The position numbers were made by a program, and so were the translations under genes. Below the pieces are notes generated by a model. The model was given only the letters and a program-made list of their open reading frames with translations, was not told the DNA's origin and made no database searches. A stretch of DNA of 36,241 bases from Burkholderiales bacterium. GTDB taxonomy: Bacteria; Pseudomonadota; Gammaproteobacteria; Burkholderiales; Burkholderiaceae. Below are positions 30,901 to 36,241 of the stretch, piece after piece. Each line of letters starts with the position of its first letter. Positions within the stretch are counted from its first letter, which is position 1. The stretch covers positions 1 to 36,241 of the forward strand of contig JAGXBI010000002.1 in assembly GCA_018971155.1 (NCBI GenBank), given 5' to 3'.

Positions 30901-30927
30901 TTAGCACTCTGCGCCAACGAGTGCTAA
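30901..30927 (-). promoter_or_regulatory. CIRCE operator (HrcA binding site) upstream of groES-groEL
   Basis: TTAGCACTC-tgcgccaac-GAGTGCTAA: perfect 9-N9-9 inverted repeat identical to the CIRCE consensus. Confidence 0.97.
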
Positions 30928-30956
30928 TTATAGGGACGGGGTTTTGCAATTTCAAG
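30927..30956 (-). promoter_or_regulatory. groESL promoter: sigma70-like TTGAAA-N17-TATAAT with an overlapping sigma32-like CTTGAAA...CCCTATAA
   Basis: Minus strand CTTGAAATTGCAAAACCCCGTCCCTATAATTAGCACTC: -35 at 30955-30950, -10 at 30932-30927, directly abutting CIRCE. Confidence 0.8.
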
Positions 30957-31164: not shown

Positions 31165-33276
31165 CTACGCGCCACCCTCGCGCCAAAAAACGGACGCGAG
31201 GTACTTCAACCCACGCCAGGCAAAACTTTGTCGCGCACCGCCGATCGTAGCGGTGCCGTCGATCTCGCGGGGCCACGCCTCGTTCGCCGGACATTCGCCG
31301 ATTCGCACGCGATAGATCGCCGCGAGCGGCACCAGCTGATGCGTGTCCGGTTTTTGCTGCACGGGCAGCGGCCCGCCATAGACGCTCGCGAGCGACGGGA
31401 CATCGAGCGTCGCCGCGTTCACGCGATCGACCGCCGTCACGCGGCAATGCACCGCGCCCAGCTCGGGCACCGATGCCACGAAATCCACCCGATCGCCCGC
31501 CGCGATGCGCGCCGCATCGCCCTCGCCGACGAACGCTTCACCCTTCACGCCGATCGGCCCGACGACGTCGAACACGTGCTCGCCGCGCGGCAGCCAGGTA
31601 CCCGGCGCAAGCGCGTCGTCGGTCTGCACAACACCGTCAAACGGAGCGCGCAGCGTCAGCTGGGCAACCTGCGCGGCGAGTCCCGTCACGGTTTGGCGCG
31701 CTGCTTCCCATCGGCGACGCAGCGCCACTCCCTGTTCCAGCAACCGATTGTCGAACGACTGCTGCGCGACCTGCCAGCCCAACAGCGTCTCATCGACCTG
31801 CGCCGCCTGCAGCCGGTGCGCGAGGTCAGGCGAGGCAAGGACCGCGAGGACGTCCCCCGCGCGCACACGCTGCCCGTCATGCACGATCGGCGCCTGCTCC
31901 GTCACGTACCCGGCCTCGGGCGCATAGAGCCCTTGCGCGCGCAACGGCCCGAGCACTGCGGGGGCACTGACGCCGCCATGCCACGGCAGCACGAAAAAGC
32001 CCAGCAGCAGCGTGCCGACGATCGCCGTGCGCCGCGTTTCGCGACGCCAGTGCAACTGCGCGCGACGCTGCCAGCACGCCGTGATTTCACGCGCCACGGG
32101 TCGCGCGATGAACCAGCCGAACTCGACGAAAAACAGCATCAAGCCCAGCGCCTTGAAAAACGTGTGATAAACAACCAGAGCAATTGAAAAAAAGACCACC
32201 AGCCGGTACAGCCACGTCACGAAAGAAAAGGCAATCAAAAAGCGCCTGCGCTTGACCGCGCACGGTTCGGGTTGCGGCTCGCCGAAACCGAACAGCCGCT
32301 CTCTGAGCCACCATCGCCCGAGTGCGAAGGCCCGGTCGTGCAGGTTCGGCATGTCGAGCCAGTCCGACAGCAGGAAGTAGCCGTCGAAGCGCATGAACGG
32401 GCTTGCGTTGATCGTCAGCGTGCCGATCCAGGTAGTCGTCGCGAGCAGAAACGCGCCGGCGCGCAGCGGCCCGTCGGGCAGCACGCTCCAGGCGAGCGTC
32501 GCCACGGCGGCCAGCGCAAGCTCCGTCAGCATGCCGGCCGCGCCGATGCGCAGCCGCTGCGCGCGCCCCGGTACCTTCCAGGCTTCGGTCGTATCGGTAT
32601 AGAGCACCGGCACCATCACGAGCAGCGCGACGCCCATCGTCGGCACCCGGCAGCCGTAGCGATGCGCTGTGAATGCGTGCCCGAATTCGTGCAATATCTT
32701 GGCGCAGGCGATGGCCGCGCCGATCGCAACCAGCCCGCGCACGTCGGCGTATCCATGGAACGTATGAATGAACTCGTCCCAGCGCTGCGACACCAGCACG
32801 AGACCGCTCAGCGCCATCAGCACGATCACCATCCAGAACGCCGGCCGGTAGGCGATCTCCGCGTAGCGTGCGAAGCGCCGCAAGAACGGCATCGGGTGCC
32901 ATAGCGGGACACGAATCATCAAGTAGTGCTTGAGCAACCACATTGCACGCGAGAGCTTGTGCGCGGCCGCTGCATTCTCGAGCAGCCCGGTATCGGCCGG
33001 ACTCGCCGCAACGAGCAAATGCTGATAGTGCAGCATCCGCAAGAGCGCTTCGAAGTCATCCCTCGTCAGTCGCAGCGTCGTCTGCGCATTGACCGAAGCC
33101 ACGATCGCCTCGGGGTCGTCGAGCGACCAGCGCGAGAGCATTTCGAACGCGGGCCAGCCGATCTGGAAGAAGCGATTGCCCGCAGGATCATGGAGCATCC
33201 AGGTCGGCGCGCCGTCGGGCGTCGCCGCGCCGGGGGTCAGGCTCAGTTCCTGGCGAAGAGAAGGAAGGTGTGACAT
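31165..33276 (-). CDS. Three-part fusion: PqqD-like N-terminus, M50/site-2-protease-like membrane domain, C-terminal HlyD-type adaptor domain
   Basis: 703 aa. PqqD-like WMLHDPAGNRFFQIGWPAFEMLSRWSLDDPEAIVASVN; zinc motif HEFGH at residues 196-200 (nt 32677..32691) and NASPFMRFDGYFLLSDW; HlyD-like LYAPEAGYVTEQAPIVHDGQRVRAGDVLAVLASPDL...LRAPFDGVVQ. Confidence 0.85.
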   Translation of the reverse strand: MSHLPSLRQELSLTPGAATPDGAPTWMLHDPAGNRFFQIGWPAFEMLSRWSLDDPEAIVASVNAQTTLRLTRDDFEALLRMLHYQHLLVAASPADTGLLENAAAAHKLSRAMWLLKHYLMIRVPLWHPMPFLRRFARYAEIAYRPAFWMVIVLMALSGLVLVSQRWDEFIHTFHGYADVRGLVAIGAAIACAKILHEFGHAFTAHRYGCRVPTMGVALLVMVPVLYTDTTEAWKVPGRAQRLRIGAAGMLTELALAAVATLAWSVLPDGPLRAGAFLLATTTWIGTLTINASPFMRFDGYFLLSDWLDMPNLHDRAFALGRWWLRERLFGFGEPQPEPCAVKRRRFLIAFSFVTWLYRLVVFFSIALVVYHTFFKALGLMLFFVEFGWFIARPVAREITACWQRRAQLHWRRETRRTAIVGTLLLGFFVLPWHGGVSAPAVLGPLRAQGLYAPEAGYVTEQAPIVHDGQRVRAGDVLAVLASPDLAHRLQAAQVDETLLGWQVAQQSFDNRLLEQGVALRRRWEAARQTVTGLAAQVAQLTLRAPFDGVVQTDDALAPGTWLPRGEHVFDVVGPIGVKGEAFVGEGDAARIAAGDRVDFVASVPELGAVHCRVTAVDRVNAATLDVPSLASVYGGPLPVQQKPDTHQLVPLAAIYRVRIGECPANEAWPREIDGTATIGGARQSFAWRGLKYLASVFWREGGA

Positions 33277-33315
33277 CGATGCGCCGCGTCAGTAGCAATC
33301 AAGACCGCGCACGGC

Positions 33316-34758
33316 CTACCAGCCGAGCCACTGCCGCGCGCTCGCCAGCGGGCGGCGCAGCAGATAGTAGGCAAGCGGCACCCAGCGGCCGTGAATGCGC
33401 GCAGTACCCATGACGCCGAGCGGCGGCTTGACCCTGCCGGTAAACGTGGCCTTTACGCGATAGGCCACCACGCCATCGGGCGTCGGCTCGGCACGGTAGG
33501 CCACCGTGTCGATGCGTGCATCGTAGGAGGCGAACGGCGAGCTCTTCGGATAAAGCGTGACACTTGCACCAGGCACCACGTCGACGTTGTCGGCGACGGG
33601 CACGTAGGCGGTGAGCTCGACGTGAGCTGGATCGGCAAGCAGCATCACCTTCTCGCCGATCGACACCGCTTTGCCGTTCCAATCGTTCGGATCGGAGAAC
33701 ACAGCGACGCCCGCACGCGGCGCGTTCACACGTACACGAGCGAGTTCGCGCGCCGTATAGTCGAGTTCGACTGCGCTTTGGTCGAGCTTGCCCTTGCGCA
33801 GCGCCATATCGAGCCGATCCTTATCGTCGGTGACTGCGAGCTGGGCCGTCTGCCGATACTCCTCCTGCGCCGTTGCGTAGTTCTTGTTCGCCACGGCATA
33901 GCGCGAGGCGAGCGCCGTGGAGTCGAGCGCAAACAGGGGGGTACCCGCTGCGACACGCTGGTTCGGCTGCGCGAACAGGCGATCGATCACGCCATCGAGC
34001 GGAGCGCGCACGACGAACGGGTCCTTCGGCGTAACCTCGGCCGGCGCAAGCACCGTCAGCGGCACGGGCGCGACGAGCGCACAAGCGGCTGCTATGAGCA
34101 CGCGACGCCGATACTTGCCTACACGCAACGCAAGCCTGGCGCGCGCGCTCCAGGAAGCCCGCGGAGAAAACGCCGCGAGCGCGTGCGACCAGACGCGTGC
34201 GAGCTCGGCGAGCAGCGCCTCGTCCACCGGCGTCCACGGCTGCTCACGCGCGAAAACCACGCCGCCGAACGAGCGGCCCAGCCGATCGAAGAGCGGCACC
34301 CATAGGGCGTACGGTGGCCACCAGGCTTCCCATTCGGCCGCGAGCGTGCCGGGCAGGCTGTCGGCAGTGAAGGCTTGCGGTCCAGCCGGCGATGCCGGGT
34401 CGGCGCTGTGCGCCGGTGCACTCGATTGCCCTGCATTGCCGGGCACCTCGCCCGCGCCCTGCCCCCCGTCGGCCGCGGCAGCATGCGTACGACGGTCAAG
34501 CGCGCGGCACACTTCGCCGAGCCACTGCACGTATGGCGCGCCCGGGTCGCTCTGCGGCAGGCCCGACACGGCGGCGACCGCGCCGGGCACGGGCGCCGGT
34601 GCGCGCCACCACGCCGCCTGCCGGTACGGCACGAGCGAGAGCGTTTCATTGACCACGACAAAGCCGAGCGTCTGCTCGCTCGGCGCTTCGCGCGCACGCG
34701 CGGACAATTGCCAGAGCACGGCAAGCGCGCTCGCCTCGATCCGCAGCGGTGCGTTCAT
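33316..34758 (-). CDS. HlyD-family membrane fusion protein with a GAF-like cytosolic N-terminal region
   Basis: 480 aa. N-terminal ~200 aa soluble GAF-like region ending LFDRLGRSFGGVVFAREQPWTPVDEALLAELARVWSHALAAF; one TM (VLIAAACALVAPVPLTVLAPAEV); HlyD-like FVVRAPLDGVIDRLFAQPNQRVAAGTPLFALDS. Confidence 0.82.
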   Translation of the reverse strand: MNAPLRIEASALAVLWQLSARAREAPSEQTLGFVVVNETLSLVPYRQAAWWRAPAPVPGAVAAVSGLPQSDPGAPYVQWLGEVCRALDRRTHAAAADGGQGAGEVPGNAGQSSAPAHSADPASPAGPQAFTADSLPGTLAAEWEAWWPPYALWVPLFDRLGRSFGGVVFAREQPWTPVDEALLAELARVWSHALAAFSPRASWSARARLALRVGKYRRRVLIAAACALVAPVPLTVLAPAEVTPKDPFVVRAPLDGVIDRLFAQPNQRVAAGTPLFALDSTALASRYAVANKNYATAQEEYRQTAQLAVTDDKDRLDMALRKGKLDQSAVELDYTARELARVRVNAPRAGVAVFSDPNDWNGKAVSIGEKVMLLADPAHVELTAYVPVADNVDVVPGASVTLYPKSSPFASYDARIDTVAYRAEPTPDGVVAYRVKATFTGRVKPPLGVMGTARIHGRWVPLAYYLLRRPLASARQWLGW

Positions 34759-34771
34759 GTGCGGCTACCGC

Positions 34772-35623
34772 TTAATGACCGGGCGCGGCAAAACGCGCCC
34801 AACCGCTCATGCCCGGCAACAACTCGGGCGTGTGGGCAGACAGCGCGGCCGTCACATCGACGGTCTGCGTCACCGGATCGACGCGCGCGCCGATACGCGC
34901 CACCTTGGCCGGATAACTCCTGCCGACTTCATCGACGCTTACCGTCAGCGCGTGGCCGGGCTTGAGCCAGACGAGCCACTTCGACGGCACGATCATCTTC
35001 AGTTCGAGATGGCTCGTGTCGATGATCGTGAGGAGCGTTTTGCCGGGCTCGGCGAACTGCTGCGCCGAGGCACTGCGCTTGACGACGCGCCCGTCGAACG
35101 GTGCGGTAATGCCGCACTTTCTCACGGTCGCCTGCATGTAGGCCACTTCCGCCGCGCTTGCCTTGGCTTTCGCCTGCGCTTGCTGCACCTCGACTTCGCC
35201 GATCGAATGCAGTTGCGAGAGGCGATCATTGACGCGCTGGAGCTGCACGGCCGCCTCGGCTTCCGCCTGGGCCTTGTGCAATTGCGCGACGTAGAGCGAG
35301 CAATCCAGCGAGACGAGCGTCTGCCCGGCGCGGAATGCATCGCCGTCGCGAAACGGCATCGAAGCGATCTTCGCGCTGATTTCGCTCGAAATATCGACCT
35401 GATCGCGCGCGACGAGCTGGACCCGGATCCGGCCATCGTCCTCGGCATGCACAGACGAAGAAACGCCGAGCGTCGCCGGCGCATTGGGCACTGCGGGTAC
35501 GGCAGAAGACGCGCGCGGCGGCGCGGCTTGCGGCCCTGCGGCTTGGGCACCCCCGCAAGAACAGCTATAGGCCACTACCATCAGGGCTGCACTGCGCAGC
35601 CCCGCCCGACACCATGAATTCAT
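34772..35623 (-). CDS. HlyD/RND-type periplasmic adaptor subunit with signal peptide
   Basis: 283 aa. N-terminal signal-like MNSWCRAGLRSAALMVVAYSCSCGGAQA; IASMPFRDGDAFRAGQTLVSLDCSLYVAQLHKAQAEAEAA; KCGITAPFDGRVVKRSASAQQFAEPGKTLLTIID. Confidence 0.88.
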   Translation of the reverse strand: MNSWCRAGLRSAALMVVAYSCSCGGAQAAGPQAAPPRASSAVPAVPNAPATLGVSSSVHAEDDGRIRVQLVARDQVDISSEISAKIASMPFRDGDAFRAGQTLVSLDCSLYVAQLHKAQAEAEAAVQLQRVNDRLSQLHSIGEVEVQQAQAKAKASAAEVAYMQATVRKCGITAPFDGRVVKRSASAQQFAEPGKTLLTIIDTSHLELKMIVPSKWLVWLKPGHALTVSVDEVGRSYPAKVARIGARVDPVTQTVDVTAALSAHTPELLPGMSGWARFAAPGH

Positions 35624-36241
35624 TGCGTTTTAACTCCATCCGCGCGGCCCAACTGGGTCCAACGCGTTTGCTCCTTGTCGATCGATTGCTCGATCGATTT
35701 CAAATCGCCAGTGCCGGCATCGGCGGGCAACGGGTCGAGTCCGAGCGTTGCCAGCAGCTGACCGTACGCGCCTTCGAGCTCGCCATAGCTTTCATACAGG
35801 CGAAGTTCCGACATCATCGCGGAGGCTGCCGCGCGGATCTCCTCGAGCTTGCCCTGCGCATTCGCGACGGTGGCGTTGTGCATGTGCTGAAGGATCTGCG
35901 CATCGACATCGTTGATCTGCCTGAACAAATCGAACTGACGCTGCTTTGCGCTCAACTCGGCGCGCGCGACGTGCACCTGCGTGAGCACGGCCATCGACAG
36001 CGCAAGCTGCTGCGCGTGAGCGACTTCGCGTTGCGCATTCGCCATGCCGCGAATGTTCTTCGCGTTGAGCAGGTTCAACAGGTTCCAGCTCACGTTGATG
36101 CCGGCCGCGCGCCATGCATGATAGGCCAGGAAGCTGTTGCTGTCGTAGTGCGTGCCCAACTGCAGTTCGATGCCCGGCAGCAGCTTGGCGATAGCCTTGT
36201 GCGTCTCGTTGACGCTGATGCGCTCGTTGTAGCTCGCTTCG
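35620..36241 (-). CDS. TolC-family outer membrane efflux protein, C-terminal part (truncated by the right window edge)
   Basis: Open frame runs to the window edge: EASYNERISVNETHKAIAKLLPGIELQLGTHYDSNSFLAYHAWRAAGINVSWNLLNLLNAKNIRG...YESYGELEGAYGQLLATLGLDPLP; 4-nt overlap with the next gene. Confidence 0.85.
   Translation of the reverse strand, partial: EASYNERISVNETHKAIAKLLPGIELQLGTHYDSNSFLAYHAWRAAGINVSWNLLNLLNAKNIRGMANAQREVAHAQQLALSMAVLTQVHVARAELSAKQRQFDLFRQINDVDAQILQHMHNATVANAQGKLEEIRAAASAMMSELRLYESYGELEGAYGQLLATLGLDPLPADAGTGDLKSIEQSIDKEQTRWTQLGRADGVKTQ

Follow-up and report, generated by a model that had tools for sequence, protein, structure and literature searches.

At the end of the window (the whole 36,241-nucleotide stretch of DNA analysed here), four genes lie on the minus strand in the transcription order TolC (cut), HlyD, GAF-HlyD and PqqD-M50-HlyD (Table 1). 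The TolC and HlyD genes share a 4-nt overlap, and the two junctions that follow are gaps of 13 nt and 39 nt. This gene order, the overlap and the short gaps had been described in a sequence-only reading of the same DNA and are confirmed here. Its remark that the visible part contains no pump also holds, and no ABC or RND pump adjoins these genes in relatives. The window stops exactly where its contig ends (G000:C57, 36241 of 36241 bases) in a 495-contig draft genome, so the TolC gene is truncated by assembly and not by biology; its start is missing from the host draft assembly. The remaining TolC piece is 90% identical to the full-length TolC of Trinickia soli, and in relatives the TolC protein has a lipoprotein-type signal that ends in LSGC.

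Table 1. Features of the operon and of the candidate cargo gene of the host. Positions are those of the window unless a contig is given.
Feature	Position	Strand	Basis
TolC-family outer-membrane protein, C-terminal 206 codons	35620..36241	-	OEP 3.4e-4
HlyD-type periplasmic adaptor with signal peptide, 283 aa	34772..35623	-	HlyD_3, RND_mfp 7.7e-37
GAF-HlyD: GAF-like domain, one membrane helix, HlyD adaptor; 480 aa	33316..34758	-	HlyD_3
GAF-like N-terminal region of GAF-HlyD, residues 1-215, presumably cytosolic	34114..34758	-	GAF matches in relatives
PqqD-like domain, multi-helix M50 intramembrane metalloprotease and HlyD adaptor, 703 aa	31165..33276	-	Peptidase_M50 1.4e-6
PqqD-like N-terminal domain of the M50 protein, residues 1-90	33007..33276	-	Relatives and AlphaFold model
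HExxH zinc motif (HEFGH, residues 196-200)	32677..32691	-	Invariant in 43/43 and 62/62
Asp298 in NASPFMRFDGYF, expected third zinc ligand of M50 proteases	32383..32385	-	Invariant in 62/62
HlyD adaptor part of the M50 protein, residues 437-660	31297..31968	-	HlyD_3 6.7e-12
LEPR-DUF4347 giant, N-terminal 437 codons	G000:C45, locus L117, 1..1311	-	Cut at contig start

All three adaptors match HlyD_3 in Pfam (6.7e-12, 2.4e-15 and 5e-21). In a Foldseek search with the full M50 model, the HlyD part matched MacA/MexA (E about 1e-11), and the best 50 matches were all adaptor structures. PqqD and GAF are sub-threshold in the window proteins (Pfam). Among relatives, PqqD exceeds the Pfam cut-off in L036 (26.1 bits, cut-off 23.4) and GAF in L033 (50.3 bits, cut-off 22.4); a GAF match was obtained in 6 of 38 members (best 1e-4) and at 4.6e-13 in a distant relative. 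A search of PDB sequences with the N-terminal profile, made for PqqD identity, gave chance matches only. In the AlphaFold model, the N-terminus of the M50 protein consists of three strands and three helices, which we take to be the PqqD topology. PqqD-like domains bind leader peptides in peptide maturation systems.

A genome scan yielded 80 relatives with flanks, including Burkholderia, Paraburkholderia, Trinickia, Chromobacterium, Duganella, Phytobacter, Azospirillum, Geobacteraceae and others, and 88 loci were examined for shared gene families. Apart from a giant repeat protein, TolC, the adaptor family and the M50 protein, no gene family is common to more than 11 of the 88 loci; no pump family is conserved near these 88 loci, and no conserved modifying enzyme or small ORF was found near the related loci. 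In the Chromobacterium group and one Phytobacter (L062, L064, L067, L070-L072, L074, L075, L082, L084 and L092), three extra genes of about 175-195, 110 and 195-230 aa lie downstream of M50. The usual order, seen in most loci with enough flank, is giant, TolC, HlyD, GAF-HlyD and M50-HlyD. When only related loci whose upstream flank reaches 6.5 kb or more are counted, a clear same-strand giant ORF lies upstream of TolC in 60 of 64. The four exceptions are two loci made unclear by frame breaks (L077 and L088), one with another gene in that place (L086) and one with no giant and an inverted TolC (L061). The giant-TolC junction is a 4-nt overlap in 14/44. In the earliest branches (L131 and L031) the giant sits after M50, adjoining TolC, and it is therefore the partnership that is conserved rather than a fixed order.

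These neighbourhoods bear directly on what the sequence-only reading had considered. The transporter that, as one of two options, it placed beyond position 36241 does not appear in relatives, where the next upstream gene encodes a giant repeat protein and not a pump; an ABC or RND pump directly upstream in the same operon was rejected as a candidate, given that the giant gene occupies that position. Its suggestion of large surface proteins as substrate agrees with all comparative data, and when the gene set was sought in other genomes and the neighbours tabulated, as it had proposed, the constant partner proved to be the giant.

The gene set had also been taken for a distinct, undescribed system, which needs revision. 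Secondary SecA_DEAD proteins have been reported together with M50/HlyD, GAF/HlyD, HlyD and sometimes OEP proteins (Kamneva, Poudel and Ward, 2015; PMC4452313), in a locus without an ABC transporter or a known cargo, whose role was left unknown (PMC4452313). SecA was suggested to be the motor and M50 the pore, and the main text of that paper names neither DUF4347 nor a giant cargo (PMC4452313). The window's operon shares with this locus M50-HlyD, GAF-HlyD, HlyD, sometimes an OEP protein, and the lack of an ABC transporter. SecA2 loci were found among the relatives (L033, L035, L128, L129, L130 and L137), and the window's M50 protein is homologous to theirs. In contrast to the 2015 locus, the window's operon is not accompanied by a second SecA, the host genome has one SecA only, and the window's branch carries its own TolC as a standard part. 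Its M50 proteins form a separate clade (48/48 sequences together, support 0.96, midpoint root). A second SecA occurs in 0/14 genomes that have only the window's branch, compared with 21/36 that have only the sister branch; it is present in 3/313 genomes without M50-HlyD and absent in most of 30 named relatives tested. One SecA_DEAD match (G110:C1, around 2262362-2263534) falls within an open frame reported as 24580 aa, which may be an enormous ORF or an artefact. The operon is a SecA2-less, TolC-carrying branch of the sparsely described 2015 locus. The gene set was already known; the giant cargo association and the separate SecA2-less clade are new, and a candidate cargo, which the 2015 locus lacked, is assigned in this analysis.

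The giants range from about 1500 to over 2500 aa, many of them running off the end of the retrieved sequence. Every giant with a visible N-terminus has a LEPR-type motif (LEPR.MFDGA or LEQR.MFDGA), followed almost always by DUF4347 and then by Ig-like and cadherin-like repeats; the L113 giant keeps the LEPR-like start and has no recognisable DUF4347. At the opposite end, the motif [GA][KR]xx[LF]xxQ[FLMI] was found in 60/60 giants, with an invariant Gln and a median distance to the C-terminus of 25 residues. Its background frequency is 0/1200 in random internal windows of the same giants and 10/749 in other ORFs. The C-terminal motif is weaker in the earliest branches of the window's clade (L131, L032 and L133), and no QF motif was seen at the C-terminus of sister-branch giants; it is a feature of the window's branch. 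DUF4347 giants likewise lie next to GAF-HlyD and M50-HlyD in sister-branch loci, whether or not these have SecA2. Several of these giants begin with a LEPR.LLSAD-like start (L125, L126, L127, L134, L135 and L036), which makes the N-terminal LEPR motif a shared feature of the superfamily. Unlike TolC and HlyD, the giants have no ordinary signal peptide; a hydrophobic stretch in the host's own giant and in the L040 giant is ambiguous.

The host genome encodes exactly one DUF4347 protein, located on contig C45 (DUF4347 E = 3.9e-57), which starts MKFAASL and has LEPRIVYDAS near its start. It runs off the start of C45 after 437 codons, as would a giant bridging C45 and C57, and its gene is probably the one that the operon lacks upstream of TolC. 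Synteny suggests one giant bridging C45 and C57 across a join that is unseen, and the C-terminal half of the giant is absent from the host draft assembly. No link of DUF4347 or LEPR-XLL to the M50-HlyD locus was found in the literature searched, in which DUF4347 is mentioned for a T6SS effector and in a proteomics entry unlinked to the locus; nor was a described export route found there for giant LEPR/DUF4347 repeat proteins.

Co-occurrence was assessed in 370 genomes taken evenly across the class. M50-HlyD was present in 57/370, DUF4347 in 50/370 and both in 40/370, giving an odds ratio of 71 and a Fisher P of 1.2e-30, a value that overstates independence because the genomes are related. About 20 of the M50-HlyD/DUF4347 pairs lie within 1-40 kb on one contig. 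Discordant genomes comprise 17 of the 57 with M50-HlyD, which have no DUF4347 match, and 10 with DUF4347 only. The association thus reaches beyond the operons that revealed it.

In the M50 protein, His196, Glu197, His200 and Asp298 are invariant in 62/62 sequences, which argues that it has been kept as a protease and not only as a channel, and proteolysis is probably part of M50-HlyD function. Among NCBIfam models, the M50 part scores best against the daptide protease NF041824 (157.6 bits, E = 4.9e-46), below the 300-bit cut-off. With the daptide and epipeptide intramembrane metalloproteases (NF041824 and NF058609), it shares an HExxH protease core and detectable similarity; it differs from them in lying far under the family cut-offs, in being fused to an adaptor and in having no RiPP genes nearby. 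DUF4347 has an invariant SHG and an invariant Cys, and in its model (pLDDT 81) the invariant His and Cys are positioned as in the caspase-type fold. Foldseek matched the model to Tce1 (PDB 9qpe, 6e-4), then to legumains (about 0.01-0.05) and caspases. A DUF4347 profile search of PDB sequences returned 9qpe at E = 0.007, later confirmed by fold; designed TIM barrels from the same search were disregarded, the match covering a short stretch. Tce1 has been reported to be a putative cysteine protease, its His/Cys pair aligning with self-processing protease domains of toxins (PMC13323088). On the model, DUF4347 looks like a caspase-type protease. Tce1 (PA0256, a T6SS effector of P. aeruginosa) shares the DUF4347 fold and its His/Cys pair, and differs in being a small T6SS cargo and not a domain of a giant repeat protein.

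A further close comparison is the type I secretion of giant adhesins (LapA, SiiE and BapA type), in which TolC and an HlyD adaptor likewise accompany a giant repeat protein, a cargo that lacks an ordinary signal peptide and has a conserved C-terminal tail. In the giants described here, the conserved C-terminal motif is a candidate for the uncleaved C-terminal secretion signal of type I cargo. The HlyD-type adaptor and the TolC-type channel of such a system are both present in the operon. However, the operon has no ABC transporter, one of its adaptors is joined to a protease and another to a GAF-like domain, and its candidate cargo has an additional N-terminal LEPR motif and DUF4347. Type I secretion proper fits poorly, given that no ABC transporter was found in the locus or the related loci and that the four ABC exporters of the host fall below the type I cut-offs. 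An RND, MFS or ABC tripartite efflux pump also fits poorly, since the cognate inner-membrane pump is absent and the upstream gene of the relatives is the giant.

We consider it likely that the operon encodes machinery dedicated to exporting and processing a single giant surface protein, whose gene lies just upstream of TolC. Gene order, conservation, the cargo association, the conserved active sites and the lack of a dedicated pump support this reading. The giant might instead leave by another route and be merely processed or anchored by the operon, as the conserved M50 active site and the protease-like DUF4347 would allow; LapA-type adhesins are handled by separate proteases. This is rather unlikely, as a dedicated TolC with three adaptors makes an export conduit more likely, the giants have no clear signal peptide, and no type I ABC transporter was found in the host. 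It is quite unlikely that an ordinary type I or tripartite system is at work with its ABC, RND or MFS pump encoded at another place in the genome. Such systems typically include adaptors and TolC, and TolC partners are often unlinked. However, of the four ABC exporters in the host, whose best names are MsbA, cyanophycin-associated or unassigned MsbA-like, none passes the NCBIfam cut-offs for type I secretion, a comparison made for ABC exporters. Furthermore, no pump is conserved near any related locus examined, and we know of no such pump that normally has two adaptors carrying cytosolic sensor-type domains.

A RiPP-like locus for peptide maturation and export, with PqqD-M50 cleaving small modified peptides, would account for the daptide protease as best match and for the leader-peptide binding typical of PqqD-like domains. 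We regard it as highly improbable, given that the daptide match is far below the cut-off of 300 and that the conserved partner is a giant repeat protein; neither a modifying enzyme nor a small ORF proved to be conserved. As in the second option of the sequence-only reading, the M50-HlyD protein, here partnered by GAF-HlyD, could also be the inner-membrane channel in place of the ABC transporter, energised by the proton motive force or by the cargo folding outside the cell. To our knowledge, M50 proteins do not serve as protein channels, and this counts against such a channel, as do the invariant protease residues and the addition of SecA in the sister branch, which points to the Sec route. In its favour are a multi-helix membrane protein fused to an adaptor, a gene set with no other conserved member and, in the window's branch, no second SecA, together with the pore idea already raised for the sister loci (PMC4452313); the channel is possible but doubtful. 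We offer only tentatively the idea of a one-step export of proteins thousands of residues long, in which an adaptor-fused site-2 protease and a GAF-adaptor replace the ABC transporter and the PqqD-like domain picks the cargo via the LEPR and QF motifs.

For the export and processing machine that we favour, we infer the following cargo recognition, route, cleavage and energy source. In the cytosol, the PqqD-like and GAF-like domains would recognise the conserved ends of the giant (N-terminal LEPRxxFD and C-terminal GKPxLxxQF). M50-HlyD and GAF-HlyD would together make up a platform in the inner membrane and, with the soluble HlyD protein, a bridge to the TolC-type lipoprotein. Housekeeping SecA/SecYEG is the most likely driver of translocation, because the sister branch recruits a second SecA. 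The M50 site would cut the chain in or near the membrane, leading to release or maturation, and the caspase-like DUF4347 may process itself once outside.

The system is real and conserved, and its cargo candidate is well supported. The orphan secretion locus of 2015 thereby gains a specific candidate cargo, the giant LEPR/DUF4347 repeat proteins, and three uncharacterised signatures (LEPR-XLL, DUF4347 and M50-HlyD) are tied into one system across many Proteobacteria. The second SecA is dispensable, as the window's branch shows, and this brings both the energy source and the part played by the M50 protein within reach of a direct test.

Some features of the window stand apart from these questions. 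A strong sigma-70-like promoter (TTGAAA, 17 nt, TATAAT) lies on the minus strand between the operon and groES (window 30927-30955), an interval in which no terminator-like site was detected. The M50 protein is 89% identical to that of Paraburkholderia kururiensis, 83-87% to those of Trinickia, and 68% to that of Pandoraea communis, a genome listed under the host's genus. The GC content is 65.4% in the window and 59.8% at the host SecA locus. The window may have been acquired by horizontal transfer or may be a mis-binned contig.
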